From: Closterium sp. NIES-65
Lineage: Eukaryota > Streptophyta > Zygnematophyceae > Desmidiales > Closteriaceae
Length of the DNA: 64,000 nucleotides
Reading direction: 5' to 3'
Assembly (NCBI GenBank): GCA_948144175.1
Contig: CANXME010000106.1
Span: 3,968,001 to 4,032,000 of the forward strand
The notes beneath the pieces are model-generated. The model made no database searches, had not been told where the DNA came from, and saw only the letters and a program-made list of their open reading frames with translations. Positions 1,053 through 61,257 of the stretch are shown in pieces. A program made the position numbers and the translations under genes. Every line of letters begins with the position of its first letter. The first letter of the stretch is position 1.

Positions 1053-4000
1053 TCATAGTACAAGCTTCGCTAGTGTGGGCTCCACTACAGGTTTGAGCAG
1101 CTCAGGGCGTTTGAAGCGGTACTCCTGTTTGATCGCCTTTGCTGTTGCCTCCACCAGTCCTTCTGGTTCGCCCTCCACCGCTGCTGCCCCCCTTGATGGC
1201 TTGCCTGCTGAGCGCAGCGCTGCTGATGCCTGCACAACATGCACCACAGATGGGAGAGCATGTAAGAAGTTGGCATAGGGTTGGAAACACGGCCACCGGC
1301 CCCTCCCTCTGGTACGCCCTCCACCGCTGCTGCCCCCCTCGTGATGGATTTCCCTCGTGACATGCACCACATTAGGAGAGAGCATGTAAGAAGTTGGCAT
1401 GGGGTTGGAGACAAGGGCACCGGCCTCGGGCTCGCCCTCCACTACTGCTGCTCCCCGTGATGGCTTGCCTGCTGAGCGCAGCGCTGCTGATGCCTGCAGC
1501 CATGCACACGTGCACAGCAACCCCTGCATGGTACCAGTAGCACTCAATTGCAAACAGCTAACATGCTGTGAATTGTAACACACTTTTCCTAATACAACAA
1601 TCTGCCCTCACCATGCAAGTGCCATAGAGCGCCCTCAGGTTGGTCCCTCCGCTGTACTCAAAAGACTTTAGAGTCAACTCAAAGTCACATCTTACAGTGC
1701 AAGTGCCATATAGCGATGGTTCGGCTCCCCATCTATTGAGTATAGAATCTGAGAGTAGCGCTCACCATGCAAGTGCCATAGAGCGCTCTCAGGTTGGTCC
1801 CTCCACTGTACTCAGTGGCAGCAGCATAGTGTGATATGGCCTGCCGATAGTTCTCTGCTCCGCCTATCGAATAGAGAATCTGGGAAAACAAGGAACGAGG
1901 AGCGAGAAAAAGAGATTTCAATGAAAGATAGACACCAGATCACAAAAGTCAGAAAAAAAAAAAGAACCATTTCCTCTCCCCTTCCCCCCTGAGGCTCTTC
2001 CTGCATGAGTCATGGAGAGATGGTGGTGTTAGGGATGAGCAAAGGGCGAACACGAACATGTTCGTCTTCGCCCCTTGTCGAACACCCTCTTTTGCCGAAC
2101 CGAACAGTGTTCGGTTCGGCGAACAGTTTAGGAAAAAACAGGTGTTCGCTGTTCGCCTGTGGAGGCGTGTTCGGGCGAACCTCGAACACTGTTCGTGTTC
2201 GTCGCGGGCAAATTTCAGCAGCGGCCCGAACACGAACGTGTTCGGGCGAACATCGAACACTGTTCGGCGAACGATTTGAGCTAAAAAACAAAACCTGTTC
2301 GGTTCGCCTCGAACGTGTTCGAGGCGAACCGAACAGGTGTTCGCCACCTTGCTCATCCCTAGGTGGTGTGGTGAGAACAAGGGTCAAATGCACCTTCCAC
2401 TTAACTTTCTTCCAAGCTTCCCCTCCCTCTCCCCGTCCCCCCTCCCCGTCTCCATCCCCCTGCCCCTCCTACACCCTTACCCTCCCCCCTCCCCCTCCCA
2501 CTCCCCCTCCCCCCCCCTCACCCCTCATTCATTTCCCCCTCACTCATTCCCCCCTCACTCATTCCACCCTAGGAACATGAGCAGGTGCATCAAAGAACAA
2601 CACGGACTCAGCGTCATGAACACACTCACAAGGCCACTAGAAATAACACTGAATACCACTGTGCACCGCTTCATGTCTCCCAGCAACTGGGGCATGACTG
2701 CGGTGCCACACTATATCACTCAGTAGCACCCTGCACCACAAAGCAAACCTCTGCACCGCTCAGTACAACTCACTACCTTAGCATTCGTGACATGGTAGAT
2801 GAGGTTGATAGGAGCTGACAGCACCACTCTGCACCACTCAGCATCACTCAATACCTCAGCATAAGTCACATGGTAGATGGGGTTAACAGGAGCTGACAGC
2901 ACCACTCGGCACCACTCAATACCTCAGCATAAGTGACATGGTAGATGGGGTTGACAGGGGCTGACAGCAGCAGCTCCTCGTAGCAGAACGCTGCTTGCTT
3001 GAACCTGGGAGGTGCGGCAAGAAGAGATGCGTGGAAGAAGCGGGGCGGACAGGAGAAACATGAGTGGGGGAGAATGGGAGCAGGGTAAAGGATGGGTGAG
3101 TCTGGGAGGTGACAACGGCAACTCCTCGTAGCAGAACGCTGCTTTCTTGAACCTGGGAGGTATATCGAGCAGAGAGTAGGGTACAAAGATGGATTTGAGC
3201 TGGCAGCAGCAGGTGCTCATGGCCACATGTTTCCTGCATGAGCCTGGAGGATGAATGAAGGGAGCACATGGCAGAAGCGGGAAAGGTAAGCAAAGAAAAG
3301 GGCTCATCCAACACCCGTCCTCGACTCGCTCTAGTTTGCGAGAGTCTCCGTTGTTGTCACCCTCTTAGTCGCCCCTACCTGTGTCGCTCCTGTGCTGCAC
3401 TTTATATTGCTTCATCTCTTTCTGGGAGTCAGGAGGAGGTGGAGGGCGTGAGAGAGCTGGGGTCCTGCTAGCTAGCTTCGGAGCGGACGCCATGGAAGGT
3501 AGGCACGCTGGGGTTCGCGCCAGTTAAAACTGGTTACGAGCTTGGCTTGTTCATGCATGCTGCCTATGTGGAAAAAAAAACCTGCCTCAATTCGTGTATC
3601 ATCAACAGTCGTTCGTTTGTCTCATGTCTAGTTCGTGCTAGATCAATCCAATCAGCCTTGAGTAGCAGGGTTGAGTAAGGTGGGTAAGGTTGAGGGCTAC
3701 TACTGAAGGCTGATTGGATTGGTCCAGCACGAACCAGACATGAGACGAACGAAGCCGACTGTTGATGATACACGAATTGAGGCAGTTTTTTTTTCCACAT
3801 AGGCAGCATGCATGAACAAGCCAAGCTCGTAACCAGTTTTAACTGGCGCGAACCCCAGCGTGCCAACCTTCCATGGCGTCCGCTCCGAAGCTAGCTAGCA
3901 GGACCCCAGCTCTCTCACGCCCTCCACCTCCTCCTGACTCCCAGAAAGAGATGAAGCAATGTAAAGTGCAGCACAGGAGCGGCACAGGTAGGGGCGACTA

Positions 4001-7000
4001 AGAGGGTGACAACAACTGAGACTCTTGCAAACTAGAGCGAGTCGAGGACGGGTGTTGGATGGGAGCAAAGAAAAGCCGCTATTCGGGGTGGCAGAAGGGC
4101 GAAAAAGATTTGGAAGGTGGAAACCAAGAGCGCTTGTTGATACACCATGGTCCTTGCTTGCTGCTCAACCACGGAGGAAGGAAAAGCGTGCAAGAGGCAA
4201 GGAGGAATGGAGGGATGGGAGATGGAACGATGGTCGAGATCGAATCGAATAACGATGTGGATAAAGATGACAAGCAGACTCCTTTATATGCAATTCCCGA
4301 AGATGACTAGAACACAGCACTGTCACCTAGCCACTGCGACATGCATGCATATGTGAAGGCAAGGGTTCATGCATGTGTATGTGAAGGCATGGCGACATGC
4401 ATGCGCATGTGAAGGCATGGCGGCATGCATGTGTATGTGAAGGCATGGCGGCATGCATGTGTATGTGGAGGCATGGTGGCATGCATGTGTATGTGAAGGC
4501 ATGGCGGCATGCATGTGTATGTGAAGGCATGGCGGCATGCATGTGTATGTGAAGGCATGGTGGCATGCATGTGTATGTGAAGGCATGGCTGCATGCATGT
4601 GCAAACTAACACAGCAATGGCATGAGCACATCCCAACGCACATGTGCAGCGAGATATAGAGGTCCCCTAGCTCCTTCCATGCCTCATAATCCGCCATGTA
4701 ACTGGAAGGAGGGAGAATGCGGAGGGGAGAAAAGGTGGAGGAGGAGAGAAGGGAGGGCAGGATACATGTGCCACGAGAGCAACACATAGCTCCTTTCATG
4801 CCTCATAGTCTGCCATGTAACTGGAGGAAGAAGAGGGGAGGGGAGGGCGAAGCGGGTCAGGGGGATAAAGAGGGACAGGCTTATTATTTGAGTTGCAGGA
4901 GTGAGCACGCACGGTATAGGTCCCCTAGCACCTTCCACGCCTCATAGTCCACCATGTAGCTGGAGGGATGGGAGAGGAGGGGAGGGAGAGAAGGATGGGA
5001 GAGCAAGGAGGAGGGGAGGGAGAGAAGGATGGGAGAGCAAGGAGCTACGTTGCTAAATACAAGTACCGAGTATAATACGTTAGCGTATTATACGCTTGGT
5101 ATATACGCGGTACGCCAAGGCTGGCGTACTGCTGATACGCAAAAATACGCTGGCGGTCAGCTAAAACTTTTTTCCCGGGCAGTTATAAAAAAACCTGTTT
5201 CAGGGGGGGGGGTTCAGGCCGACAACAACACATGTCAATATTTTATTTCATAAATATCCAGAAATACATAGTTCATCCACATAATCCCCACTCTCTAGCG
5301 AGCTTCCCCACAGCCTATTTCCTTGCGGGGCTTTTCCACCACCACCCCTTCCCATACTCATCCGCCAGCACTGCATCATCTCCTTCCCCCCCCAGCAGGT
5401 CATCCTCCTCCTCCTCGTCCATGTTGTAGCCGCGGGGGATAGGGGCATCCGGGATGTTCCCGGGCACAACCGTGCTGGCCCCATCCTTGTTGTACCAATT
5501 GCGCACAACGTTCCAGTAGTGCGCAATGTAAACCAGGTCCGCACACTTGGCGGACCCGAGGCGGTTGCGGCGGGCGGTGTGGACGCCTTCCCACTGCGCC
5601 CAGCCACGTTCGCATGAAGAAGCCGAGACGGGCTGAGTGAGAATCCGGCATGCGAGGGTGGCAAGCTCAGGGTACTCGGTGGTGTGCCACGACCACCACT
5701 GCACCATGCTCATCTCCCCTTTCTTCACTGCCTCCCTTGCAGCTATGGCGCTTAGCTTGCCAAAACTGCCCTCCAAGTTGATGTAGGCCAGCAATGCCTC
5801 CTGCAGCACAAGGGAGGCACGGCGAGGGGCACCATCCTTGCCGCGCCTGAAGGTGACGTGGTCATAGTGGCGCTCGATGTAGTCCTTGAACACCCTCGTG
5901 CACTCCACATCGTTCCTGAAAATTCCCTCCTCCTGGTTGGCCGGATTCAGGATCCGGCCAACCACATGCATGGGGCAGGCAAGGGAGTTGTCCCACCTGT
6001 CCTTCACAATCTTGGTGATGTCTGCCCTCTCTGTCCGAGTCAAGAAGTCGCCTGAAGCGTCGAGCTTGTCATTGATGTTCTCGGTAAGCTGTAGCATAAT
6101 GTCATACAGCTTACCCATCATGCCTTTCGCGGAAGAGTCCGTGGCCCGCATGGCCTTGAATGGCACCGACATGAGAGAGGAAAAGAACTCTGCCACCCCC
6201 CACCACTCCTAAGTTGGAATATACGCTACTTTCATTTTGCGTTTTGCGTTTATACGCTTGTCGAATTCGTACGTTGCGTATAGTTTGAAAATTCGCCGAG
6301 TTGAATTTCAGGCAGACCGAAAAAAAACAAAATTTCAATCTGAAGCTCGCGACGTGGCGATCTCAATTCCAAGTCGCAGATGTCGCGAAATGAACTCAAA
6401 TTTTGAATTTCGAGCACCAAACCTCATCAACCCCTCCCCTCAAACGTTTCACACCCCTTTGAACCACAGCATTCCACCATCCCCTCCAAGTGCTACTTTA
6501 CTGGTTGGGAGCTCAACCCAACCCAATCTCCCAGGCAGAAAGAGAGGCGTTTGTTCCCTCAACATTCATTCTCTCGCTTCCTATTCTAGCTATCTCCTTT
6601 CCCAAGCCACCATGGCTTCCACTCCTACAGCAACCACTTCTCGTACGCCACCCTCAGAGTCTCCTGGTAGTTCCGCTGGTGGGACCTCTTCTAGTACGTC
6701 TTTGGTCTGCATGGACAGCAAGCACGCAGTCTACCGTCACTTCAAGGTGCCGGCCAATAGCGTTGGCGAGAACGGCACCAAGGTGTGTGCCTACTGCAAC
6801 TTCACGTTTGTTGGCGGGGTTCACCGTTGCGCGCAGCATATCACCAGCTGGAACGGCATGCGCCGTCGCGAAGTGCATCTCTGCACTGCAGCGCCGAAGA
6901 CTGCACGTGACGCCGTGAAGGCGCTTTACGAGTCCAAGTTGAAGGCCCGTGAAGCGAAGCGTGCGGCTGAAATTGCGGCGGTCGGCGCAGTCAACGGCAG

Positions 7001-10000: not shown

Positions 10001-13000
10001 CCAGCACGGAGTCGAGTGCTGCAGCAGCCGCCCCTCGTTTCATGCTCTTGTTTTCCTCCTTGTTTTCGTACATGGCACGCATTTATTCACGGACTTTCGG
10101 GGACACGTCCTTGCAAAGCCTGACAGGGCGTCCATCTTGCCCTTTCCATTTGGCGAGGTGAACTGCGCAGCGAGTGGTTCCGCCCTCAAACTTGAAGCCA
10201 CAAAACTTACAAATCTTGGGATTGCCTTTGGTGTGGGGGGGAATAAGAAAATGTTTCAGAATGGGGTTCGAAAGGCCAGCCTCAATAGGCTGCGTGTTGA
10301 TCGCACTACTAGACGCGTGACCAGAAGCTACATTGCTCGTCGCGCTAGGAGGAGTGGAGTTCGACGCCATGGGGCGCGACTAAGGAACGGTAAACTGCTT
10401 GAGGAAAACGGGAGATCAGAGCTCGGGAATGAAATTGAGGAGAGAAACGAATGAAGGATAGGAAGGCGTCAACAAGTAAATGCTCACATGACGTGCTGGA
10501 CATTTGAGAGGGGTGGTTGGATATGAGAGGTTTGGTGGGGTGGTGTGTGGTTGGGGTGGTGAGAGGTTTGGATTCTGAAATTTGAATTTCAGACGTGGGT
10601 TGGGCGATGTGCTTGGTCGCGTAACCAGTCGCGAAGCCCTAATAACCGTCGCATTTTTTTTTCAATTTCGATTTTTTTTTTTTCCGCCGGGCTGCCCGCG
10701 CGTTTTTTCACGAATTCGAAGCGTATTAGCGTACCACGTACGTACGCAATCGTATATACGTGGTACGCCACCCTACCCAGAGCGTATTTGGCAACGTAGG
10801 CGAGGAGGAGGGGAGGGCGAGGAGGAGGGGGATGGGAAAGGGGAGGAGGAGGACAAAGGGTGGTAGAAACCCTTTATAACAGCTGTTGTTAACACGTATC
10901 ACTGCACTCCCACACCACTGCACTCCCACACCACTGCACTCCCACACCACTGCAGCACCCTGCACCGCTGCACTCCTGCACTGCTGCACCCCACACCGCT
11001 GCACCCCACACCGCTGCACCCCACACCGCTGCACCCCACACTGCTGCACCCCACACCGCTGCACCCCACACCGCTGCACTCACGCACCGCTGCACCCCAC
11101 ACCGCTGCACCCCACACCGCTGCACCCCACACCGCTGCACTCACGCACCGCTGCACCCCGCCAGCCTCACATCTCGAGGCGCTGCTTGTGTGCAGCGATG
11201 GCTCCCACTGTGTTTCCCTTGCCCTTTCAGCACCGGTTGGCAGCAGGACATGCAGCAGTGGGCACTTCTCAGCACTCTCTCCGACACCACTGCATTCCCA
11301 CCCCACTGCACTCCACCACTCCGTACCCCTACACTCACGTTTCGAGATACTTCTTGAGAGCGCTGATGGCCCCCACCGTGTTGCCCTTGCCTTTCAGCAC
11401 AGCAACTTGACGCTTCAACACTTGCTGGCAGCGCGGAGATGTGCACGAGAGAGGAGCAGCAAGAAAAAGGGAGAGAGACGACAGAAAAGGTGTTTGGTTG
11501 GATGGCTGCTGCTGAAGTGATGTCCTTGCTCTTGAGCACTGCCATGTGGCATTCCAACACTGGATGAGGGGGGATGAAGGAAGAGCAGAAAGAGCAGGCG
11601 GAAAGAGAATATCAAACAATCACTTCCTTCGCTACAGAAGAGAGCAGGCACACGCTCTCACCCACCGGGTCCTGAGAGTTGCTCTCCAGCAAGTCAGAGT
11701 AGACCTTGTCCGCCTGATCGCACCACCCCTTCTTGAGTCTTGACCGTGCAACAAGAGAGGAAAGGGAAATAAGCACACTCAATTGATCTGTGGCCAGGCA
11801 CACACACCTGGTCCTGCGGGTTGCTCTCCAGCAGGTCACTGTACACCTTGTCCGCCTGATCCCACCACCCCTTCGCCTCCAGCCACATGCCCTCCAACCG
11901 CCCTGCACCGCACACGATACAGGGGGGAAAAGACAGGAGAGAGGAGAGGAGAGGAGAGGAGAGGAGAGGAGAGGAGAGGAATGGAGAGGAGAAGAGAGGA
12001 GAGGAAAGGAGAGGAGAGGAGAGGAGAGGAGAGGAGAGGAGAGGAGAGGAGAGGAGAGGAGAGGAGAGAAAACGAGAGGAGAGGAGAGGAGAGGAGAGGA
12101 GAGGAGAGGAGAGCAGAGTAGAGGAGAGCAGAGGAGAGGAGAGGAGAGGAGAGGAGAGGAGAGGAGAGGAGAGGAGAGGAGAGCACCAGGTGCAAGGTCA
12201 GTGAGTCATGCCATAAGTAACAAAGGCCAAACGGTGATGGCCGAGTGGTGCAAGGTAGTGAAATGTAGTGCAAGCGGTGCAAAAAGCCTTAGGCGTGGTT
12301 GAACGGAGTGGGTTGGGTGCAGCAGAGCGCGGTGAAGTGCGGTGCAGTGACTCACCCACGCGAGTGCTATTGGGGAATGCGATCATGAGGGCTCCTATGC
12401 ACTCCTGCCATATCATCCACACAATGCAAAGAACGCAAGTAGGTGTTAGGAGCGGTGCAATGGGGTTTGCATGGTAAAATGCGATCATGAGAGCTCCTAT
12501 GCACTCCTGCCATGCACAGCACCCAGAGGGCATGTACAGCTGTGGTTATGAGCGGTGCACTGCGGTTTGCATGACAGCATGCAGACTTCGTAGTCCCAAT
12601 GCTACGCGCAGCTGGTGGCATTGCTGGCATGGCAGCGCCGCAGCACACCAGCAATGCCAACCGTATTTTGAAGTTGACTCAAACAGCAACAACCCCTACT
12701 TTTTTTTGTCTTTTCAACAAAACCACCAGCTTGGGGGAGGGGGGTGGGTGTGGAATGAGTGACCCATCCATGACATGCCTGCTCCTTGCAACAGAGCCTC
12801 CATGCTCCCCTTCCTTCCCCTCCCCTTCTCACACTCCTTCTCCTGCACCCCTCCCCATGCCCCCCTCCCCATGCCCCCATCCCCATGCCCCCCTCCCCAT
12901 GCCCCCCTCCCCATTGCCCCCTCCCCATGCCCCCCTCCCCATGCACCCCTCCCCATGCCCCCCTCCCCATGCCTCCCTCCCCATGCCCCCCTCTCCATGT

Positions 13001-15603: not shown

Positions 15604-17200
15604 GGTGGTGGTTGCGAGGAGTGGTGACCTATACGAGTTAGTTGAGGGGAATGATCTCGCCGCGCTTCGAAGGAGGTGTATGGAGACAGGCAAAGGCAAT
15701 TGAGTAGACTAGGCAGTGCCTGATACTCCAATATATTAATTTGCATAATCACAACATAGCCACTACACCGCGTCCCGAACGGCCGTGGAAGAGATTCGGA
15801 TCGTGGGTTTACAGTTCTTGCAACGTGGTTCAGAACGTTCCAACACGGTGAAAAGCGGTTCTCGAAGTCTACCGCTCTGCACTGTGTTGAAACGAAGTTA
15901 ACCGCAGTGGGCGTACAAAAAGTTGTACAACCTGACGTCGACCTAAGATCCAAAAAGTCTAGGTGGGTCACGTTCCTGATTCGTCAAATGCGGTCAAGTA
16001 CGTTAAAACGTGATAAAAAAACGGTTTGCGGCGGTGAAAACTAAGAAATTTTTTCAACCCATTTCTAACGTACCAGACCACATTACACGAACCAGGTACG
16101 TAAAACCGTGACCCGCCCAAAGCTAATGGATCTCGCGACATTGGCGAAAACACTGAGTTTCGCGGTTCCAACGCATTGTCTGGATCGTGCAACACTGGGT
16201 GCACCATTGGTGAGGTGCTCGCCGGAGTTCGCTTGGTTGCGAGAACAGAAACCTGAACATTGCATTTCATCCGGTTTACATCGCGTTCATGTTTGATTTT
16301 GCGAACGATCATCATTGACGAGATCTGTCAACGAGCTTTCGTAAAAAGTTACCATCACCTCGTCGACACAGGGTGAGTTCGTCAGCCTATGAGTGTTCGT
16401 TCCCTGCCTGACGCGCAAAGTTCAAAATTCACCACGGTCCGCAATTTGTGACCAGGAGTGTCACGAGTTCGACCCATACCCCTGCAGACTACCCTAGGGT
16501 TAGGAACGCGGCGCCGCGACCTTGCATACGCCCCGTTCCGCCCAGTGGTCTAGGGCAGGCGGCGTAACTGATTTCCGTGTTCGCGTTCACGCGATACACG
16601 GGCAAGGTTCTGATCCTTTACAAGCTGCTGCGGTAGAGACCTGGCACCTAGCTGCGTCGCGGGGAGCGCCCGGTAGCGCGCGAGGAGTACCTGACTCTAC
16701 GGGATAACGAGCTGAGGTCTCGATTAGTCAACTAAGCGGCGAGCTCAGTCGCGAGGTGACTCCTCACTGCGAAGCCCGTTCCATTACCGATTCCCTCTAA
16801 ACGCGGTGCGTTCCGCTGCGATCTCCCCCCCACCCCTCCTCGTTTCTTTTCTCACAGTAGTGACGGCAGGAATCACCCCTGTCGCGTCGTGAATGAATGC
16901 ATTCGGAGTTTTCTGACACCGCTCCCTACATTGGTGCGACTTTTGGGAATTCTCAAAATTCGGAGTTTCCTGATACTGCTCCCTCCGACCCTTCCCCGCC
17001 AACCTTCTTTCCCTTCTCCTCCCCCCACCCCCCTCCCCGCCCCTTTTTGAGGCGCCTCAAAAGTCGCCCCTGTCGCGAGTGAATGCATTCGGAGATTTCT
17101 GATACCGCTCCCTCCAATCCTTCCCCGCCAACCTTCTTTCCCTCCCCCCTCCACCGCGCCCCCACCCCCCCCCCCCCTCGCCTCCCCCTGTCCAGGCAGC
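15604..17200. promoter_or_regulatory. Divergent intergenic region between EMC2 and SPF30
   Basis: EMC2 starts at 15603 going left, and the first SPF30 exon copy starts at 17201 going right. The spacer is less repetitive than the introns and contains no supported ORF or RNA gene. It probably carries both promoters, but I can point to no convincing TATA box. From 16860 to 17110 a short direct repeat occurs: GAATGCATTCGGAG plus TTTCTGA followed by ACCGCTCCCT appears at about 16894 and 17083 with CCTTCCCCGCCAACCTTCTT after each. Confidence 0.45.
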
Positions 17201-17935
17201 ATGCAGAGCCTGGAAGAGCGTCAGGAGAAGCAGGAGAGCAGAGCACGCCATTTCAAGGCCCCTCTTCGCCCTGGCATGCGATCTGTCTAGCCCGCCCGTC
17301 CCGTCCGTCTCGCCGCTCCCCTCCAGGCAGCATGCAGGGCGTGGAACAACGCCAGGAGAACCACAAGAGCTTGACGAGGCACCTTAAAGCCCCTCCTCGC
17401 CCGTCCATGCGATCTGTCCAGCCCTTCCCTCCCAGCCCCTCCCCTGCCCGGCCCACCAGGCAGCATGCAGGGCGTGGAAGAACGCCAGGAGAAGAACAGC
17501 AAGAGCCCCGCAGGCTATCCCCAACCCTCCTTTCCCGGCCAACCGTCTCTCCCCTCCCCCTCTCCCCCGTCCCTCCCCCGTCCAGGCAGCTTGCAGAGCG
17601 TGGAAGAACGCCAGGAAAAGCACAACAAGAGCCCCGCGAGCTATCCTCAACCCCCCCTTCCCTGCCAACAGTCTCTCCCCTCCCCTCTCCCCCTCTCCCC
17701 CCCCTTCCACGCAGCATGCAGAGCGTGGAGGAGCTCCGGGAGAACCTGGTGAGCTGGTTTTTCTTCCTTGCCCCCACTCCTCACCATCCCCTTCCCATTT
17801 TCCCGCATCCCCCCCCTCTCCTCCTTTCAAGTCCCCTCCGCCGCCTGTCCAGGCAGCATGCAGAGCGTGGAAGAGCTCCGGGAGAACCTGAACAGGTATC
17901 TGGAGCAGCTAGAGCAGGGACAGTTGTGAGCATGC
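17195..17935 (+). repeat. Six upstream copies of SPF30 exon 1
   Basis: A pyrimidine tract, CAGGCAGC, then ATGCAGAGCGTGGAAGA-like text recurs with starts at 17201, 17332, 17465, 17591 (TTG instead of ATG), 17716 and 17858, before the exon used here at 18019. Spacings are 131, 133, 126, 125, 142 and 161 bases. The products read MQSLEERQEKQ, MQGVEQRQEN, MQGVEERQEKN, LQSVEERQEKH, MQSVEELRENL and MQSVEELRENLNRYLEQLEQ. Any of several could act as an alternative first exon or upstream ORF. Confidence 0.88.
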
Positions 17936-18018
17936 ACGCACGCACGCACCCACTCACCCCCTCCCGTCCCCGCCTACCTCTCCCCCCCTCCCCCCCCCGC
18001 CCCCCTCTTCCAGGCAGC

Positions 18019-21000
18019 ATGCAGAGCGTGGACGAGCTCCGGGAGAACCTGAACACGTACAGGGAGCAGCTAGAGCAGGTGAGTGGGACCATCCGTTGGT
18101 GCAGAGGAGAATGATGTAGGGTGGGAAGAAACTGTGGGAATGATGTAGGGTGGGAAGAAACTGGGAGAATGATGTAGGGTGGGAAGAAACTGTGGGAGCA
18201 ACTGGAAGGTGCCTACTAAATCATGTGTTTTTTGAGAATTCTCAAAATACACACGCTAGATCATGAGCGCCCTCTTACCCCGTCTGCTGGTCCGTGCGTC
18301 TCTTAATTAAGTATTTTGGTTTCTTGCTTGTTGCTCTGACGCCTGCGATTCCAGCTTCTCTCCTTGGTCATTCCAATGCGTTCAACTGCCCTTTATAACA
18401 GGTCTCGGAGTTGCTTATAGAGGATCCTGACAATGACGAGTACAAGGAGATGGCCAGTGGGCTCAAGGAGGTGAGATCTTCTCTTCTCTTCCATTCCAGC
18501 ACACTTATTGTACCACCTGGTGGCCTCTCTTCTTCTCGTCTCTTCCATTCCAGCACACTTATTGTACCACCTGGTGGCCTCTCTTCTTCTCTTCTCTTCC
18601 ATTCCAGCACACTTATTGTACCACCTGATGGCCTCTCTTCTTCTCTTCTCTTCCATTCCAGCACACTTATTGTACCACCTGGTGGCCTCTCTTCTTCTCT
18701 TCTCTCCTTTTTCACACCTGCTGCTCGCTCGCATGGCTGAGCGATTCAAGTGTCAGTCATTACCTGTTCGCATTCTTTCATTCGCTACAGTGCCAGTCAG
18801 CACCCGCTGCTGTATCCTCGCTCTTGACTAAGCTCACTTTCCGCTCTCGTTGTTGTCTCCACTCTCAACCTTCCACGCCCTTCTCCCCCCTCCCCCCCTC
18901 TCCCCCCCTTGCTCTCCTCGTCCAGGACATGAAGCACACACGCCACGCACACTCCACTGCACACACACTCCTCATTCCATCTCACGCCATCCCCCCCCTC
19001 GAAGCCGAGGGATTAATTCCGAGGTCATCTCTCGGGGGGGTCATCGAGCCCACAGGACCTACCCAGTGCAGCGAAGCAGCAAACGCAGCAGAGACCACCA
19101 CACACACTCTGCCTGCACACTTCTCATTCCATGCCTCTCCTATCCTCTCCCCCCTCCACCCACCAGGTCATCGAGCATACAGAGGACCTGCTGAGTGCAG
19201 CGGAGCAGCAGACACAGGAGGGGGGAACTGCCACACACACTCTGCGCACACCTCATTCCGAATCACTCCATCCTCGCTCATTCCCTCCCCCCTCTGGCAG
19301 GTCATTGAGCTCACAGAGGACCTTCTCAGTGCAGCGGAGCAGCAGACACAGGATGAACCGCCATGCACACTCTGGACTCCCCTCATTCCATCTCACTCCT
19401 TGTAGTCGGCTTACAAGTCACCTTGGCAATCCCCCTCCCCCCTGGCAAGTCATCGAGCTCACAGAGGACCTGCTCAGTGCAGCGGAGGCACAGGAGGAGA
19501 CTTCTGAGTCAACTCAAAAGTCAGTGGAGGCATTGGAGGAGCTGCCACACACACTCTGCACACACCTCGTTCCATCTCACTCTATCCTCCCCCTCCCTGC
19601 CAGGTCATCGAGCTTACAGAGGACCTGTCCAGTGCAGCGGAGCAGCAGACACAGGAGAAGAGAAGCTGACACGCACATTCACACTCTTCCTCACTCCATT
19701 GCACTCCTCGTGACTTCTGAGTCGACTCAAGTCTCCTTGTCCATTCCCATCCACCAGGCAGGTCATCGAGCTCACAGGACCTACCCAGTGCAGAGGAGCA
19801 GCACATGCAGGAGCAGCCGCCACACTCCACATTTGTTTTTCCACCTCGTTTCTCGTGACTTTTGAGTCAACTCAAAGGTCTCCTTGTCCATCCTCTTCCT
19901 CCCTGGCAGGTCATCGAGCTCACAGAGGATCTGCTCAGTGCAGCGGAGCAGCAGACACAGGAGGAGCCAGCACCGCCAGATGCAGCAGCAGGGGTTGCAA
20001 CTGCTGTGGTTGCCACTCCGTTTGTCCCCATGGCGTTTGTGCCGGCCGCTTCTGCTGTTGCTGTGAGTGTGTGTGTGAGCATGCCTTCAGCTCAGTTCAA
20101 TGCACCCTGTCTCTGCTGTCCCCACCCTCTTCCTCTGCATCTGATTCACGTGGGGACACCACGTGCATCGCATGCATCGCCTTTTCTTAGCGCAGTTCAA
20201 ACGAATCATCGATATTCCGCCCACATCCTCTTTGCACCGCTCTTGAAAAGCCCCTCTCCTGTCCTTTGTCACATACAGTCCAGTCCACCCACGTCAGCAT
20301 GCCCTCTCTCCCTTCTTCACTCACCCATCCTTCCCTTTCCTTATCCAGACTTCTGAAGTTTTTTAAGCCTCTCAGCACCTCCCTGAGAAAGAGTCGTCAC
20401 CTTAGCTAATCCAGAACCCTTCCCTTCCCCTTCCCCCGCTTCGTTCTATTTCCATCCTAACGTGCGTTTTCTAGACCACTGATCCGGCAGCTTTAGCAGC
20501 AGCAGCAGCAGCAGCAGTGTCGTCTCGGATTGCAGTGGGCACGTCAGTGCAGGCGGCGTGGGGAGTCACCGCTGGGACTGCTGCTGGTGGCATACGAAGC
20601 TCTGAATGGTGAGTGAGAGAGGGGGGGGATGGAGGGCTAGCAGCAGGGGGGGCATCAGCAGCAGGGGTCCCAGCAGTGTCATTTCGGACGTCAGGGCAGG
20701 CGGCGTGGGGCGTGACTGCTGGCACTGCAGCTGGCAGCATTCGCAGGTCCGAGTGGTGAGAGAGAGGGTTGGATGGTGGGATGCGAGGGGTTGCTGGGTT
20801 GGTGGATGATAGTAGTGATTTTTGCAGAGCACCTTGCAGGCGGCGTGGGTACAAGCGCACAGTGCAGGCGGCGTGGGTACAAGCGCACAGTGCAGGCGTG
20901 TGGGGTGTGACTGTCGGCACTGCCTTTGGCTGCATTCGCAGCTCCGAGTGGTGAGATAGAATCACGGCATGGTTGGGTGGGTTAGATGGTGTGGTGGGTG

Positions 21001-22862
21001 GGTGTATGCAGCAGTGTAGACGGCGTGGGGTGTGACTGCCGGCACAGCACTTCTTCTGGCGGCATTTGCAGTTCCGAGTGGTGAGCGGGATTGAGTGCAC
21101 ACAGCGTGGAGCGTGGTCCTCGCATGTGGTGAGAGGGGATGGTGGTGGGTGACATGCATGGTGGGGAACATGCATTGTGGGTGACATTCATGGTGGGGGA
21201 CATGCATTGTGGGTGACATGCATGGTGACATGCATGGTGGGTGACATGCATGGTGATATGCATGGTGGATGACATGCATGGTGGTGACATGCATGGTGGG
21301 TGACACCGTGACATGCACTGTGTGTGTGAGCGTTTAAATGCACGCTGTGTGGAGCCTTGGTCCAGACACTGTTGCTACGGCCATAACAAGTGGTGAGTGG
21401 GGATGGTCTGAGAGGGGGTGGTCTGAGAGGGGATGGTTTGAGAGGGGTTGGTTTGAGAGGGGGTTTGCTTGAGAGGAGAGAAGAGTCACGGCAGCTGAGA
21501 GTCACTTCATTTCTCTCTGCGGTGATGAGCCCGTTTCTCACCCTTGGCCTCCTACTGTGTGAAAGGGAATCCTTCCCAACTTACAATGTGTCTATTGAGG
21601 ACGACGACTCGTGTAACATGTTTTATGAGGATCAGAAAGTGCCACAAGCTGAAGAAGAGTTCGCAGTGCAGGCGCACCCGTTATTTGAGGCTTCAAAGGG
21701 CGATGGCTAAAAAATTGATTCGAACCTGAGCAGCATCTGCAGTGTGACGCTCACATGGTTGATCCAGAAAATTGCAATGTGAACAATGGCTTATCTGACA
21801 GCGGCTGCAGCAACCAGAGTTTCAAGGAGGAGCCTACCGCTTCCAATGCTGCCGGCAACCTATGCAGCCATGTCTACAAGTTCAACTGCTATCACAACAA
21901 CTACAGAGCTGATTACAGCGAGACCGCGGCTCAATGATAGTCAGCTTCGTGGTTGTTGCAATAACAGCTGAAACTTGTAGATGCGGCTGCAAAGACTGCT
22001 GACAACTCTGGTAATGGTAGGCTCCTCCTTGGAGCTCTGGCCGCTGCAGCTGCTGTCAGACAAGCCATTGCTCGTGTTGCAAGTCTCGGAACCAGTCACG
22101 TTAACGTCATTGCTGCAGATGCTGCTCAGGTCCCAATCAAATCCCAAGCCATCGCCCTCTGAAGCCTCAAACAGCGGATGCGCCTGCTTTGCGAACTCTT
22201 CTTTAGCTTGTTGCACTACTTAGTTGTCCACGGGGGGCTACGTGGTGCTCTTTATTCCTCCCTGCGGCTAGTCCTACCTCCTCTTCCTCCCTTCACTGCT
22301 CCTTCCGCTCCGTCCACTCCATTGCTCTCTCCCTTCCCTGCCAGGCTTGACGGTGTGGTGGACAGTGTGACCACGGGGGGCTACGTGGTGCGCGATGCAG
22401 GAGGGCAGATGCACGAGGTAAGGCACTCACAAAGGGCTGATTCCGTCTCTCTCCTTGCACTTGCCTCGTTCACCAAAGGACAGTGCACCAGGATCTTGAA
22501 CGCCCTCTTTATGCAGCAGTCTGAAAGGTGGACAGTGTGACCACAGGGGGGCTATGTGGTGCGCGATGCAGGCGGGCAGATGCACGAGGTACTGTTTTCA
22601 TTCGCCTACACACACTTCTGTGCCCGCTCTTGCTCTCCCACTCTTGCACTCCCACTCCTCTTGCACTCCCTTCATACCCTCCTCTCAAACTTCTCTTTTC
22701 CCCTCTTACACCTCTCGCCCGCGCCCAAGGCATTATGCGCATCGCATCTTGCTTTGTGCACTCGTGTGCACGGTGGGATTCTTGGTTAGTTTTTTTACAT
22801 TTGAGAATCAGACTTTCCTGCTGCAGCTGTTTGGCTGACACTTACACGCACACTGCTTCACG

Positions 22863-22915
<53 letters not shown>

Positions 22916-23053
22916 ACACACACACACACCACTCAATCGACCCCCAACACCACTTAACCCACACACGCCACCTCGAGACGAGAGTACGGCGGGTGGAGGA
23001 GAGTGAGGAGGACGCGAGGCGGCGGGCACAGGAGGCACTGGCAGCCGTGGAAT

Positions 23054-23103
<50 letters not shown>

Positions 23104-25986
23104 CCCAATTCACCAACACACCACCTGACACCCCCCCCCCCCCCCCCCCCCCCTCCCCTCCCCGCTTGCGCCCAAGTCATTATGCACATTACAACTTGCT
23201 TTGTGCACTCGTGTGCCCGGTGTGTTTCTTGGTTCGTTTGTCAACGTTTGAAAAGACGTAACGGCTGCAGCTGTTTGGCTGACAAATGCACGCACGTCGT
23301 TTCACACACACACACACCACTCGACCCCCACACACCACTTTACTCACACACACCACCTCGACACGAGAGTGAGGCGGGTGGAGGAGAGCGAGGAGGACGC
23401 GAGGAAGCGAGCACAGGAGGCACTGGCAGTTGTGGGGAGAGAGGCGGATGAGACGAGGAGAGCAATCTCACACCCAAATTCACCATCCCCGCACACAAAC
23501 CCCCCCACCCTCACCACTCGCCTCACCCCACCACACACGCAAACCGCCTGCAGGTGCGGGAAACAAGAGTACGGCGGGTGGAGGAGAGTGAAGAAGACGC
23601 AAGGAAGCGAGCACAGGAGGCACTGGCAGCTGTGGAGCGAGAGGCAGATGAGACGAGGAGAGCCCTCAAGCGGAAGATGGAGGAAGCTTCCAGGACGGAG
23701 TTGGTGAAGAAGGAGATTCCGCTCAAGCTGAGGATCAAACCAGAGGACTCGGAAGATGTGGTGAGTGCAGTGCAGCGGGGTGCGGCGGAGGGGTGAGGGT
23801 TAGGGTCTGGTGAGGTCACATTGCTATGGTAACGTTGTCACTCTGACTTACTTGAGCTGTCTTATGACTTACCTCTTTCTCCATGATACCAGCACTTCAT
23901 TTGTTTCCACTCATTCCTCCTATCCCGACCCTTGTCCTGTATCAGTGTCCCTTGTCCCCGTTGCCTTCTCCTTTTCCGTGAGCCTCCTCCCTTCTTCCTG
24001 CATTCTTCTCCCCAACAAGCCAACAACAAGAGGCGGATTCACTCGTTCCTGTCGCATGTCCTCTACCCATGCCCCCTCTCCTGGTCACGCTCTCCTTTCT
24101 CCCCGTCGTCTCCCCCACAGAAAGTGGAGAAGAAGCGGAAGATCCACGCATTCAAGTCAAAGCAGTGCAGATGAGCACGTGTTCTAGCCCCATGCGCTCT
24201 ATCCATGTCCCATCTCCTGCTTGCCGGCTCCCTTTTGTCCCTCTCCCGTATCCCTCTCCCCCCCCCCCAGAAAGTGGAGAAGAAGCGGAAGATCCACGCG
24301 TTCAAGTCGAAGCAGCGGATGGAGATGCTGGAGGTGATGAAGATGAGCACATGTTCTTGGCCCATGCACCCATGTCCCGTGTCCCTCCTCCTCCAAAACC
24401 CCCCCCCCCACCCCCAGAAAGTGGAGAAGAAGCGGAAGATCCACGCGTTCAAGTCGAAGCAGCGCATGCAGATGACAATGTGTTCTAGCCCCATGCCCTC
24501 TATCCATCTCCCATCTCCTGCTTGCCCGCTCCCTTCTGTCCCTCTCCCATGTCCCATCTCCTGCTTGCCCGCTCCCTTCTGTCCCTCTCCCATGTCCCAT
24601 CTCCTGCTTGCCCACTCCCTTCTGTCCCTCTCCCATGTCCCATCTCCTGCTTGCCCGCTCCCTTCTGTCCCTCTCCCATGTCCCATCTCCTGCTTGCCCG
24701 CTCCCTTCTGTCCCTCTCCCATGTCCCTTCTCCTGCTTGCGCACTCCCTTTTGTCCCTCCCCCGTGTCCCTCCTCCTTCCCCCCCTCCCATCCAGAGAGC
24801 GGCGAAGAAGTGGAAGATCCACGCGTTCAAGTTGAAGCAGCAGATGGCGATGCTGGAGGTGATGACGTCCCATGCCGTCCATCTGTTTCCGTCCTCGCGC
24901 CTGCCCCTCCCTTCCCCTCCTTCTACCCTCCCCCTGTCCTTCTCCTCGTCCTCACTCCCCCCCCAGAAAGTGGAGAAGAAGCGGAAGATCCACGCGTTCA
25001 AGTCGAAGCAGCGGATGGAGATGCTGGAGGTGATGACCAACAAGAAGCAGAACACGTGGCAGCAGTTCCAAACCAAGGGCATCAAGAGGAAGGTCTGCAC
25101 CGTCCTCTCCCCTTTCCCTTTCCATGCTTGCTTCCCTTTTGAGATGCCTCGAAAGCAGAACACGTGGCAGCATCAAGAAGAAGGTCTGTAACGTCCTCTC
25201 CCCGCTTCATGCACATGCCATGCATGAGTCAGCTGTAGGAGCCTCTTTGCCATCCCACTCTTTCTCTCCTAACAATCCACTCTCTACTTCAGGACACCAA
25301 TACGCCTGTTCGCCGTTACAATTATGCATCACCCCTTTCTGTTGTTTTGAGATTACTCATTCTGATGGTTTGAGATTACCCCATGTCCATCGCGGACATA
25401 TCTTGGCTGCTGCCTCTGCCATTGGCACTTGACGGAGTGTCACTCACTCGCTCGCTCCCAGATTTTAGATGTGCCCTTGGCGCTTGTCTCGCTCACTCAT
25501 TTTCCTCACTCTCTCTTCACCTTTCACATTTGTTGGGCTGAATATTCACTGCGACCATCATCTGTCACCTCTGAGACTGCATCTGTTGAGGCACATCAAA
25601 GTCGCTTTCGCCTTTCACAGTCTTCAGAGTACACTCTCTCTCTCATCTCAACGACTTCATCTCTCGTCTCTCTTCCCTTCCTGACGGGGCACAAGAAGGA
25701 GAGCATGTTCAAATCGCCAGAGAATGTTGGCAGCAGGGTGAGGGTTACTCTTGAGGCGCCTAAGAAGTGCTCTCTCCATCCATCCCATCCCGTCCCATCC
25801 CATCCTCCCATCCCATTCTCTCAGGCGGGCTTCCTGACAGGCCGCAAGAAGGAGAGCATTTTCAAATCGCCAGAGGACGTGGGTGGCAAGGTGGGGGTGG
25901 TGGGGAGCGGGCAGGGCATGACGGATTTCCAGAAGAGAGACAAGAATCTCAACCTGCGCGCACAGGGCCAGGCAGAGGACGACTAA
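18019..25986 (+). CDS. SPF30: SPF30/SMNDC1-like Tudor-domain splicing factor, eight exons
   Basis: SPF30 (SMNDC1) is a nuclear Tudor protein needed for tri-snRNP joining during spliceosome assembly. Exons: 18019-18078, 18402-18470, 19910-20062, 20475-20608, 22345-22417, 23554-23760, 24967-25092 and 25825-25986. The lengths (60, 69, 153, 134, 73, 207, 126, 162) join in phase to 327 residues plus stop. Family landmarks are the N-terminal helix (ELRENLNTYREQLEQ), VIELTEDLLSAAEQQ, the Tudor strand region (VGTSVQAAW ... LDGVVDSVTTGGYVVRD), KRKIHAFKSK, NTWQQFQTKG, TGRKKESIFKSPEDVGGKVG and the tail MTDFQKRDKNLNLR. The Tudor domain carries about 12 extra residues (GVTAGTAAGGIR) between VQAAW and SSEW, so exon 4 may be spliced differently. 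Every exon except 2 has decayed copies next to it, so exon choice is the main uncertainty. Confidence 0.87.
18488..18712 (+). repeat. 54-bp tandem repeat after SPF30 exon 2
   Basis: Four units about 54 bases long contain CTTCCATTCCAGCACACTTA and TTGTACCACCTGGTGGCCTC. They start just after the exon 2 donor at 18471. Each unit holds a TTCCATTCCAG that looks like a splice acceptor, so decoy acceptors are possible. Confidence 0.93.
19036..19830 (+). repeat. Six upstream copies of SPF30 exon 3
   Basis: Copies of GTCATCGAGCTCACAGAGGA (VIELTEDLLSAAEQQTQ) start at 19040, 19167, 19301, 19449, 19604 and 19762, then the exon used here at 19910. Spacings are 127, 134, 148, 155, 158 and 148 bases. Those at 19167, 19301, 19449 and 19604 keep a CAG or AAG acceptor and a long open frame. 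The first and sixth carry a deletion giving PTGPTQC or ELTGPTQC. Only the last copy continues into the Pro/Ala-rich segment and a GTGAGT donor. Confidence 0.93.
20660..21400 (+). repeat. Copies of SPF30 exon 4, some with CATGCATGGT satellite
   Basis: GGCGGCGTGGGG-type text followed by a G/C-rich segment and TCCGAGTGGTGAG recurs at about 20690-20760, 20836-20955 (with an internal 27-base doublet), 21010-21085 and weakly 21330-21395. In the downstream copies an AG dinucleotide directly precedes the codons for SEW. From 21140 to 21305 a GACATGCATGGTGGGT-like repeat fills the space. Confidence 0.8.
21640..22222. repeat. Palindrome of two inverted coding-like arms in SPF30 intron 4
   Basis: The plus-strand arm (about 21640-21940) encodes EEFAVQAHPLFEASKGDG before a stop. 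The minus-strand arm (about 22222-21945) encodes EEFAKQAHPLFEASEGDG and continues with NTSNGLSDSSCSGQSSKEEP. The plus arm matches the latter at the DNA level near 21775-21840 in a shifted frame. The arms meet near 21942. I do not recognise the protein. It may be a captured gene fragment carried by a foldback element. No clear target duplication was found. Confidence 0.75.
22515..22596 (+). repeat. Copy of SPF30 exon 5
   Basis: GTGGACAGTGTGACCACAGG and the following codons up to GATGCACGAG|GTACTG repeat exon 5 (22345-22417) about 170 bases downstream. The copy has one extra base in the G run, shifting the frame. Confidence 0.88.
22862..23160. repeat. (CA)n tracts and a poly-C run in SPF30 intron 5
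   Basis: CA dinucleotides fill 22866-22930 and 23053-23100, on both sides of a copy of exon 6. An almost pure C run lies at 23132-23152. A block with TGCCGTTACGTC-like spacing and CACTCGTGTGCACGGTG recurs at about 22730-22800 and 23170-23240. Confidence 0.95.
22976..23475 (+). repeat. Two upstream copies of SPF30 exon 6
   Basis: Codons for RVRRVEESEEDARRRAQEAL recur at 22978-23050, and RVRRVEESEEDARKRAQEAL with EADETRRAI at about 23362-23470, ahead of the full exon at 23554-23760. The acceptor at the used copy is CCTGCAG. The upstream copies have CACCTCGAGACGAG-type borders instead. Confidence 0.9.
24118..24870 (+). repeat. Four upstream copies of SPF30 exon 7 and a 43-bp satellite
   Basis: AAAGTGGAGAAGAAGCGGAA (KVEKKRKIHAFKSKQ) starts at 24121, 24271, 24418 and, as a diverged copy, 24796, before the full exon at 24967. 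All have a C-rich tract and CAG just upstream. Between 24500 and 24760 about six units of a 43-bp repeat containing CTCCTGCTTGCCCGCTCCCT separate the third and fourth copies. The end of exon 7 is echoed at 25154-25195. Confidence 0.92.
25676..25742 (+). repeat. Upstream copy of the SPF30 last exon
   Basis: Text encoding FLTGHKKESMFKSPENVGSR precedes the last exon (FLTGRKKESIFKSPEDVGGK, from 25825) by about 150 bases and ends in a GTGAGG donor. It could be an alternative internal exon. Confidence 0.85.
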
Positions 25987-26011
25987 GGCTACACTGTTTC
26001 TGAGGCGCCGC

Positions 26012-26095
26012 AACCATAAGAAGGGCATGACAAACTTTCAGAAGAGAGACAAGAATCTCAACCTGCGTGCACAGGGCCAGGCAGAGGAGGATTAG
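26012..26095 (+). repeat. Downstream copy of the SPF30 C-terminus
   Basis: After the stop at 25984-25986, codons for GMTNFQKRDKNLNLRAQGQA reappear and end in GAGGAGGATTAG at about 26095. A copy of the last 80 bases therefore lies in the 3' UTR, or offers an alternative ending of the protein. Confidence 0.92.
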
Positions 26096-26960: not shown

Positions 26961-28705
26961 TTACAAAAAGCTTGCTATACGGCGATTGTAATAGACGGTC
27001 CACTCGAGGAGATCTTCTAGCAGCTCCTTACGCCACCACTCCGCGCCTCCGTGGAGGTGAATGTTTTCAGGGTCCCGAAAGCGCGAGAGCACGAGGTACT
27101 GCATATACTTCATCACAAACACGCCACAGTTACACGCGTCCGTCTGCTGTGTTGCCTGCAGCAGGAAGGGGTAAACAGGGTTTAGAGTGAGCGTCCGATG
27201 AGCGGGGAAGCAGGCTGACTGTCAATGCGAACCCCTCACCCACCGTCAATGCAAATCTCTCACCCACCTGGACTTTGACTAACGGCACGTGGCTGAGCGT
27301 CAATGCGAACCGCTCGGGGCCTTACCCACCTGCCCCTGACCCCCCTCATCACCACCCCTCACCCCTCATCAGCACCCCTCACCCCTCATCAGCACCCCTC
27401 ACCCCTCATCAGCACCCCTCACCCACCTGGACTTTGACTAACGGCACACGAGCAATCCAGTCGTCTGCCTCTGCCTCGAACACGCCTAGCATCAATTCTC
27501 GCAGCTGCTGCCGCAGGTACCTGCCAGGCCAGCACACCACTTGCTTGAATCATGGGGTTACAAATCACAGGGTTACGTGCATGATAAGGGCACAGGGTCG
27601 GGGATAGGAGCTTATTGCTGCAATGGCGCTTCAAATTTTGTGTGCAGGGACAGGGAGTCAGCATGTAGGATGCGGGTAGGGCGGCGTGGCAGTGTGGGCG
27701 AGCGGTCGTTGTCTAGGATGACTAGACTCCAATGATTACTGCCACAACAATGACAATGAGAATAGCAATGAGAACGGGAATGACAATGCCAATGACAATG
27801 CCAATGACAATGCCAATTGAGAATGACAATGAGAATGAGAATGACAATGAGAATGAGAATGAGAATGAGAATGAGAATGATTCCCACATGATGCGCACCG
27901 TTGGAAGGTGACGTGTTTGAGTCGACCCAAAGTCAGGGATGACCAAACGCCAATGATTACTACAAGCCCTACATGCGCACCGTCAGTTGATTACTACACA
28001 ACTTGTGAAATGGGTCGCACCCACCCACCCAAGAATTCAATACCCAGCTTACTCTGCGTGCAGCGGAATGAGAACCCATCTAAACAGCAGCATGTTCTCA
28101 TGTGGAAGGACCAGGTAACCCTCGCCTGGGCGACGAGGCATTGAGATCAAACCGAAAGTGAAAATGGAGCAGTATAGCCACGAAAATTCCTCGTACTTGT
28201 TTACGTACTGCAGCATCCTGTAAAGTACAAGGAACGAGGGCCGCATGCAAGGTTAGTACGGGACGCAGGCATGGTTCCGATGCACTGCAATTTACAACAC
28301 TCGATGACTCAACTGATGACACCACTCACAGTCCGAACCACTCGATCACTTCTCCAGACACCCATTACCGCGGCTGCAGAGTTTCCACGTCGCGCTTAGT
28401 AAGCACGAGCCAATCATCGTATAGGGGAAACACCATTTCGAGTTTCGTGAAGGTTTCCAGCCGAGCCTCGCCAAAGGAGGGCTCGTCCCCCTCGTGCTCC
28501 ATGCGCTCGTCCCCCTCGTGCTCCATGCGCTCGTCCCCCTCGTGCTCCATGCGCTCGTCCCCCTCGTGCTCCATGCGCTCGTCCCCCTCGTGCTCCATGC
28601 GCAACAACGGGGCTTGCTCAAGTCGCCGTGGATCGCGTGCGTCGCGCCGCGAGCGATGGTGAGGGACAGACGTGAAAAGCGGTAGCTTAGAGGTTCACGC
28701 TGCTT
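26961..28705 (-). CDS. Ulp1-type SUMO protease (peptidase C48), partly resolved
   Basis: C48 cysteine proteases mature SUMO and remove it from targets. Exons I can support on the minus strand: about 28705-28369, 28217-28053, 27520-27427 and 27155-26961 (stop 26961-26963). Motifs in family order are LTKRDVETLQP (start of the fold), RWVLIPLH (strand before the catalytic His), DDWIARVPLVKVQ, then QQTDACNCGVFVMKYMQYL with the catalytic Cys, and a short tail. The Asp usual just before the Cys is Asn here. I did not find the exon with the catalytic His (HW) or the WLND segment, so the gene model is incomplete, or the gene is damaged. The N-terminal exon encodes MEHEGDER five times. The start codon is unknown. 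Confidence 0.62.
27225..27450. repeat. Direct repeats at the protease exon border
   Basis: CACCCACCTGGACTTTGACTAACGGCAC occurs at 27264-27291 and 27420-27447. That is one copy of the exon end (VPLVKVQ plus donor) about 156 bases from the good one. Between them CACCCCTCACCCCTCATCAG-like units repeat four times. Confidence 0.85.
27735..27885. repeat. (AATGAS)n hexamer tract in protease intron
   Basis: Hexamers of AATGAC, AATGAG and AATGCC type run for about 150 bases. The opposite strand gives a long hydrophobic open frame of Ile/Leu/Val or Ser/Phe that is only a repeat artefact. Confidence 0.92.
28480..28602. repeat. 24-bp coding minisatellite (MEHEGDER)
   Basis: Five almost identical 24-bp units with CTCGTGCTCCATGCGCTCGT code on the minus strand for the acidic octapeptide MEHEGDER in the N-terminal exon of the C48 protease. 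The near identity shows recent expansion, and unit number is likely to vary between strains. Confidence 0.9.
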
Positions 28706-31052: not shown

Positions 31053-31109
31053 CTGCTTAGGCTGCGGGTAGATGTCTATACTATTCACTATGATGCTATC
31101 CTCACTGCC

Positions 31110-61219: not shown

Positions 61220-61257
61220 GGCAGCAAGAATAGCATCAAAGTCAAGGTCAAAGATAG

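Follow-up and report, generated by a model that had tools for sequence, protein, structure and literature searches.

Copies of exon edges beside nearly every exon of two housekeeping genes in the green alga Closterium

Two genes and their exons

The 64,000-nucleotide (nt) window analyzed here, that is, the whole stretch G000:C106:3968001-4032000, comes from the green alga Closterium sp. NIES-65 and contains two ordinary housekeeping genes, EMC2 and SPF30, in which 16 of the 18 exons have same-strand copies nearby, 41 copies in total scoring above shuffled sequence. This bears out the original prediction, made from the letters of the window, that nearly every exon of the two genes lies amid its own copies. 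Our sequence base was ~300 kb of this one genome, in which gene models were built by hand, and whole-genome searches covered 874,075,685 bases. In the part of Kawaguchi et al. available to us (PMC10407611), the NIES-65 genome is given as 876 Mb, based on PacBio reads and linked-read scaffolding.

EMC2 lies on the minus strand, with 10 exons running from 15603 to 1053 and a product of 311 amino acids (aa), and SPF30 lies on the plus strand, with eight coding exons running from 18019 to 25986 and a product of 327 aa. Both frames are complete to the stop codon, with GT and AG at every internal border; ahead of the SPF30 start-codon exon, no non-coding exon was identified. The EMC2 product corresponds to the Pfam family TPR_EMC2 (7.8e-38) and is, in a protein search, 90-100% identical to predicted proteins of strains NIES-64, NIES-65, and Yama58-4, while SPF30 is 98% identical to predicted proteins of NIES-64 and NIES-65. 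The SPF30 product matches no Pfam family at 0.001, and its name rests on plant relatives ~45% identical to it, several of which are annotated as survival of motor neuron-related-splicing factor 30; a search of the whole genome for the Tudor family found none, but likewise found none in 14 controls. The GC content of the two genes is 0.583 in exons and 0.562 in introns. Their exons are listed below.

15517..15603, minus strand: EMC2 exon 1, with the ATG; no copy found
14262..14382, minus strand: EMC2 exon 2
13330..13394, minus strand: EMC2 exon 3
12356..12404, minus strand: EMC2 exon 4
11808..11902, minus strand: EMC2 exon 5
11339..11424, minus strand: EMC2 exon 6
4642..4701, minus strand: EMC2 exon 7
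2923..3004, minus strand: EMC2 exon 8
1766..1879, minus strand: EMC2 exon 9
1053..1229, minus strand: EMC2 exon 10, to the stop codon
18014..18078, plus strand: SPF30 start-codon exon; acceptor before 18014, ATG at 18019
18402..18470, plus strand: SPF30 coding exon 2; no copy found
19910..20062, plus strand: SPF30 coding exon 3
20475..20608, plus strand: SPF30 coding exon 4
22345..22417, plus strand: SPF30 coding exon 5
23554..23760, plus strand: SPF30 coding exon 6
24967..25092, plus strand: SPF30 coding exon 7
25825..25986, plus strand: SPF30 coding exon 8, to the stop codon

Position, spacing, and orientation of the exon copies

A copy was counted when its score exceeded the maximum of 100 block dinucleotide shuffles. 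The 15 exons initially thought to have copies all have them, EMC2 exon 3 being an addition, and EMC2 exon 1 and SPF30 exon 2 have no copy above this threshold. All 41 copies lie less than 900 nt from their own exon, and their spacing is, as had been proposed, mostly 100-175 nt (31/41, with a median of 144). A link of this spacing to nucleosome or Okazaki fragment length was considered and set aside, the median being all that spoke for it, and the likeness to a nucleosome length may be a coincidence. Inverted copies were rejected as well, since opposite-strand matches did not noticeably exceed shuffles: 16 of the 18 exons stayed below the maximum of 50 shuffles, EMC2 exon 10 equaled it, at 39, and the score of SPF30 exon 6 was a single point above it (51 vs. 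50). The copies are listed below, with periods determined by Tandem Repeats Finder (TRF) and with reference to contig C1592, which bears a second copy of the locus.

14443..15282, minus strand: array of six acceptor-edge copies of EMC2 exon 2, upstream; TRF period 128 over 14449-14735
14164..14222, minus strand: donor-edge copy of EMC2 exon 2, downstream
13086..13128, minus strand: donor-side copy of EMC2 exon 3, downstream; border without GT
12478..12506, minus strand: acceptor-edge copy of EMC2 exon 4, upstream
11668..11732, minus strand: donor-edge copy of EMC2 exon 5, downstream
11174..11233, minus strand: donor-edge copy of EMC2 exon 6, downstream; largely lacking in the gene copy on C1592
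4766..4958, minus strand: one whole-exon and one acceptor-edge copy of EMC2 exon 7, upstream
2777..2907, minus strand: two donor-edge copies of EMC2 exon 8, downstream; TRF period 78 over 2749-2969
3081..3152, minus strand: acceptor-edge copy of EMC2 exon 8, upstream
1612..1660, minus strand: donor-edge copy of EMC2 exon 9, downstream
1292..1493, minus strand: one acceptor-edge copy of EMC2 exon 10 and one reaching neither edge, upstream
17177..17917, plus strand: array of copies of the SPF30 start-codon exon, upstream; two above threshold (17716, 17858), six motif matches before the real exon
19040..19832, plus strand: array of six acceptor-edge copies of SPF30 exon 3, upstream; 147-nt unit 19731-19877 absent from the second gene copy
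20638..21080, plus strand: three donor-edge copies of SPF30 exon 4, downstream
22527..22588, plus strand: donor-edge copy of SPF30 exon 5, downstream
22222-22248: 27-nt fragment of SPF30 exon 5, upstream
22975..23463, plus strand: two 5'-edge copies of SPF30 exon 6, upstream; neither border with AG
24121..24866, plus strand: four acceptor-edge copies of SPF30 exon 7, upstream; TRF period 147 over 24112-24561
25153..25184, plus strand: 3'-side copy of SPF30 exon 7 reaching neither edge, downstream
25677..25745, plus strand: 5'-edge copy of SPF30 exon 8, upstream; border without AG
26022..26094, plus strand: copy of the end of SPF30 exon 8 with a stop codon, downstream of the gene's stop

By eye only, a further, more decayed copy of EMC2 exon 9, with an internal gap, can be seen at ~1690-1750.

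Most copies (36/41) reach just one exon edge, and they follow a strict rule of position: the 24 that reach the acceptor edge only all lie upstream of their own exon, and the 12 that reach the donor edge only all lie downstream. Two copies reach both edges, one of them without a GT at the donor, and the three that reach neither edge all lie on the side of the nearer one. A tandem duplication that spans an exon border, and keeps the exon whole, leaves an acceptor piece upstream or a donor piece downstream. The rule, obeyed by 36/36 one-edge copies, is thus the mark of border-spanning tandem duplication filtered by selection.

Exon pieces might instead have been inserted by templated repair or retrotransposition, which would suit a few small fragments that reach no edge (22222-22248 and 25153-25184) as well as partial matches to EMC2 exon 10 far from the gene, one of them 54 kb off (L005, G000:C106:3914908-3914997; aa 281-310, 83%) and others at C338:84586 and C1592:3305. 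However, inserted pieces would be expected on either side and on either strand, whereas the direct orientation, regular spacing, position rule, and shared intron parts of the main arrays fit tandem duplication, and a young array on contig C43, described below, shares intron sequence. We therefore regard insertion as improbable.

Repeat structure, decay, and splice sites of the copies

When the window is compared with itself, repeat diagonals of 305-874 nt run across both exon and intron parts; the arrays have TRF periods of 78, 126-131, 128, and 147, and in three of them the spacers resemble one another more than in all 20 shuffles. Local repeats are also found in 80-nt tiles taken from other intron DNA (49/77 in EMC2 and 43/74 in SPF30), as they are in exon tiles (24/30), while transposon tiles have them in 1/72 cases in two nested hAT elements, a control that cannot tell sequence preference from a possibly younger age of the transposons, and in 62/408 cases in a block of retrotransposons. 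Since intron DNA other than the exon copies is duplicated too, the process is general, and exons are its recognizable part. TRF arrays cover 0.27 of the pooled introns (median 0.23), 0.02 of exons, and 0.01 of the hAT DNA. Under a stricter cut, repeat tiles make up 23% and 20% of the flanking 200 kb; two repeat-tile blocks from these flanks, one of which is L014, revealed no informative domain, and a further block (L013) is a proline-rich repeat beside retrotransposon domains. G-quadruplex clusters are more frequent in the introns (41 in 14.8 kb) than in hAT DNA (1 in 5.8 kb) or retrotransposon DNA (26 in 32.6 kb), a comparison that is confounded by pyrimidine-rich splice tracts.

The copies had been described as decayed, which holds for most of them, different from the real exon by 5-29%, but not for a few that are undecayed, such as 70 nt at 100% identity at 24271. 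A frameshifting indel interrupts the aligned part of 21/41 copies. At sites covered by at least two copies, to which the codon-position test was limited, changes private to one copy fall on codon positions 1, 2, and 3 in a ratio of 32/37/48, while sites where the copies are unanimous in differing from the real exon are distributed 0/0/13. The copies thus decay approximately neutrally, and it is the contiguous exon that is the constrained one.

Copied splice sites are not purged. The splice dinucleotides are kept at 18/26 copied acceptor borders (AG) and 11/14 copied donor borders (GT or GC), and median scores at copied sites are 6.2 for acceptors, compared with 5.1 for real ones and -2.7 for any intronic AG, and 6.2 for donors, compared with 8.4 for real ones and -0.7 for any GT. 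Exon definition, that is, recognition of an exon by both of its edges together, would hide these sites from splicing.

Intact splice sites could also mean that the copies have been retained because they serve as alternative exons, mutually exclusive ones for instance, and a slight third-position excess among copy-specific changes points the same way, as do some copies found in predicted Closterium proteins (strains NIES-53, -54, -64, and -65). A 6-mer search of these proteins yielded 18 raw cases, of which we judged seven genuine and 11 to be indels or chance, with 0/163 in control plant proteins. The genuine ones are SPF30 exon 1 in P0001 and P0002, SPF30 exon 3 in P0056, EMC2 exons 9 and 10 in P0059, and EMC2 exon 2 in P0061 and P0062; a strict BLASTP search found three cases vs. 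one in controls. However, 39/41 copies miss at least one exon edge, frameshifts affect about half of them, and private changes are close to 1:1:1 over codon positions. On account of these incomplete edges, frameshifts, and near-neutral changes, we rejected alternative exons as the main explanation, and we give that idea very little chance. The copies may rather explain doubtful exons added by gene prediction in Closterium, as in P0059 and P0061.

Tandem duplication as a proposed source of intron DNA, in Closterium and elsewhere

The same gene block is found on contig C1592, where aligned intervals are 98.2-99.9% identical to the window (0.993 at 20.0-21.2 kb), and tandem units differ in number between these two near-identical gene copies. 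By our own reading, 13 of the 15 length differences of at least 12 nt are local repeat changes, the other two (31 and 515 nt) being of another kind. Two of the 13 fall in the array of SPF30 exon 3, one of them a single 147-nt exon-border unit, acceptor included, that the window has at 19731-19877 and C1592 lacks (either a gain or a loss), and a further one is a 15-nt CAG-type run inside the real SPF30 exon 4. Not counted among the 15 are two larger gaps in the alignment: C1592 lacks ~1.8 kb found in the window (9376-11220, a segment that takes in most of the copy of EMC2 exon 6) and has ~6 kb extra near window position 21,220. Tandem arrays can be misassembled in a repeat-rich PacBio genome, and assembly quality is named as a caveat in the available part of Kawaguchi et al. 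(PMC10407611), so the copies might be an artefact of assembly or sequencing. Most, however, are too different from the real exon to be repeated reads, the second contig has nearly the same arrays, and predicted proteins of three other strains (NIES-53, -54, and -64) show copies of the same exons, none being seen in the control plant proteins. Because of this second contig and these proteins, we find an artefact hardly credible.

If EMC2 and SPF30 were isolated cases, the original prediction would be refuted, but copies in two further gene families, to which our small survey beyond the window extended, reveal that they are not. The CCT chaperonin family (PF00118) has 93 matches in the genome, and we took DNA from five loci, three chosen for visible duplicates (C43, C1626, and C1052) and two without such knowledge (C1757 and C1133). 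Exon cores were defined by protein matches, with three visible duplicates left out, and up to 12 copies were counted per exon. Copies accompany 23/26 cores, including 6/7 and 5/5 in the two unselected genes, and 69 of the 70 copies that lie within 1.5 kb obey the position rule, one breaking it and one further copy lying more than 1.5 kb away. Eleven of the 69 belong to one young array on C43 (11.5 units at 98%, intron DNA included), in which a 124-nt unit holding the acceptor edge of a CCT exon occurs 12 times almost unchanged, as many times as in a second contig (L037:1364-2791 and L042:212-1639); TRF arrays in one CCT gene have periods of 124 and 173 and 97-98% identity. In a 1.2-kb stretch of PGK, both exon cores (2/2) have donor-side copies downstream at the DNA level, while no duplicate exon appears among 30 PGK protein matches, so protein-level counts understate copies.

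We propose, at a probability of roughly 0.88, that Closterium gene bodies undergo frequent local tandem duplication, mostly of 100-175 nt, that the events are filtered by selection, and that the copies decay while introns lengthen. A segment duplicated within a gene body would, when it spans an exon border, place an extra copy with a splice site in the intron and leave the exon whole. Only harmless events would survive selection, which would let acceptor edges accumulate upstream and donor edges downstream; copies would then decay approximately neutrally, purifying selection keeping the real exon. Units would be gained and lost, at times many together, as may have happened in the 12-unit CCT array, and introns would become longer. 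Duplication, rather than another copying process, probably makes the units, and slippage, template switching, and unequal exchange all fit; the process may be genome-wide, and splicing would skip the copies because they lack the paired edges of a real exon. The original idea that introns grew by serial duplication of exon borders agrees with the position rule, the repeats that cross exon and intron, and the unit difference between the two gene copies.

Several observations weigh against this proposal. The 40 nt past the border resemble the real flank (p <= 0.05 vs. shuffles) in just 15/33 copies (11/21 acceptors and 4/12 donors). Around the copies of EMC2 exon 9 and SPF30 exon 5, the flanking sequence looks unrelated, as it does around some copies at 95-96% identity. 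Exon parts are far better conserved than spacers: in 15 adjacent copy-copy pairs, identity is 0.885 in exon parts vs. 0.817 in intron parts (0.718 for unrelated spacers, with a standard deviation of 0.064), and gap columns number 42 per 662 aligned vs. 596 per 1143. Whole-exon copies are scarcer than expected (2 vs. 7.7 of 41, P = 0.011), a shortage that is not significant when counted per exon-border class (2 vs. 5.1 of 24, P = 0.09). Pooled differences between copies and real exons give an omega-like ratio of 0.31 (0.25-0.40, resampling copies), under the floor of 0.5 for a neutral copy; we rejected it as a sign of constrained copies since changes in the real exon are counted several times, and the split by codon position removes most, but not all, of the conflict, the slight third-position excess persisting. 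Finally, the 12 copies of the young C43 array are present in both contigs alike, so arrays do not always differ.

The better conservation of exon parts, with their far fewer gaps, and the scarcity of recognizable flanks are what one would expect if the copies were old and gene conversion with the real exon had preserved the likeness of their exon parts while the intron parts diverged freely. Against this, the C43 array is alike across its whole unit, intron DNA included, and copies carry near-neutral changes of their own, which makes gene conversion unlikely. Under tandem duplication, much of the gap in preservation between exon and intron parts, the latter being heavily worn in older arrays, can be put down to spacers of low complexity and to each copy's constrained ancestry.

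Several other elements lie in or near the two genes. EMC2 intron 6 holds two hAT-type elements at 5043-10815 (DUF659 and hAT dimerisation domains), one apparently nested inside the other in opposite orientation, and intron 7 a long inverted repeat at 3310-4060, centered by eye at ~3680, which is either a foldback or a misjoined palindrome. SPF30 intron 4 has a foldback element at 21638-22217, with inverted arms of 105 and 138 nt, next to the 27-nt exon 5 fragment. A third gene at 26964-28700, Ulp1/SENP-like (its relative P0181 carries PF02902), has a 24-nt coding repeat and, by eye, a donor-edge exon copy (27262 against 27421; gene read from 28.7 to 26.9 kb). Beyond it, Copia-type retrotransposons with RVT_2 domains occupy 29301-61900, where a reading frame resembling gag lies at 41.1-42.4 kb and two 5-kb segments (30978-35950 and 56318-61350) form an inverted pair at 83%.

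Intron growth is usually ascribed to transposons. We see about even chances for a wider reading in which duplication, genome-wide and still active, and not transposons, would be chiefly responsible for intron DNA outside transposons, nearly every exon would trail copies of its edges, and genes would survive because splicing needs both edges; such growth would then be a general eukaryotic mode, which birds and the algal relatives of land plants would have acquired, or carried to an extreme, independently of each other. Because each duplication is tagged by unique exon sequence, one can tell, for each gene in turn, how large and how old the events are and what became of them. The strictness of the position rule allows mutation to be told apart from selection, and the abundant decoy splice sites, still intact next to real ones, would offer a natural test of how the spliceosome finds exons.

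Among known systems, minisatellites likewise expand as tandem arrays that gain and lose units, but the Closterium unit holds a splice site along with coding sequence, and selection on the mRNA acts on it as a filter. Intron gain in potato RdRp, as far as the available text goes (PMC4974935), shares with our case a tandem duplication within a gene that alters intron content; there the outcome is a new intron, whereas in Closterium the introns already present become longer and no gain of an intron was seen, outgroups not having been compared. Tandem exon duplication, discussed in the accessible part of Ivanov and Pervouchine 2022 (PMC9013439) chiefly for the alternative exons to which it gives rise, also puts tandem exon copies within a gene, whereas ours are mostly single, decaying exon edges, and just 2/41 reach both edges as the complete exons of a mutually exclusive pair do.

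The closest likeness is to a process that the original prediction, which knew of no name for it, had missed. Hron et al. 2026 (PMC12954441) described intronic sequence and exon stuttering in chicken, including copies of a lateral exon part with its donor or acceptor, and the portions of that paper available to us report it from birds and from gerbils (the latter as data not shown). As there, we find local, direct, imperfect tandem copies in blocks of tens to hundreds of bases, exon edges copied with their donor or acceptor into the adjacent intron while exons stay intact, and purely intronic stuttering alongside (92/151 other intron tiles repeat locally). With the settings of their screen (blastn-short, at least 20 nt, 42.1 bits), EMC2 and SPF30 gave 29 hits in adjacent introns and none in other introns, involving 13/16 introns and 13/18 exons, and no 20-nt hit in 20 mononucleotide shuffles. 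The source lies within 5 nt of the facing border in 21/29 hits; in chicken, more than 90% of copies begin within 1 base of the exon border. The chicken dot chromosomes have exon stuttering in 190 of 5,572 introns (3.4%), with median repeat coverage of introns of 7-93%, so that 13/16 introns looks denser, a comparison that is not like for like because EMC2 and SPF30 were picked for the feature. Stuttering is tied in that report to GC-rich, transposon-poor dot chromosomes, as an association and not a definition, whereas our case is a green alga with moderate GC and with transposons in and beside its introns. Intron length varies between individuals in chicken, whereas the variation seen in Closterium is between two gene copies in one genome. 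Among the papers listed, a literature search found nothing on such exon-edge copying in algae and no second paper using the stuttering terms. The Closterium copies work like chicken exon stuttering and share most of its features, which extends a phenomenon described in birds to ordinary housekeeping genes of an alga from a group related to land plants, seemingly the first case found outside vertebrates.

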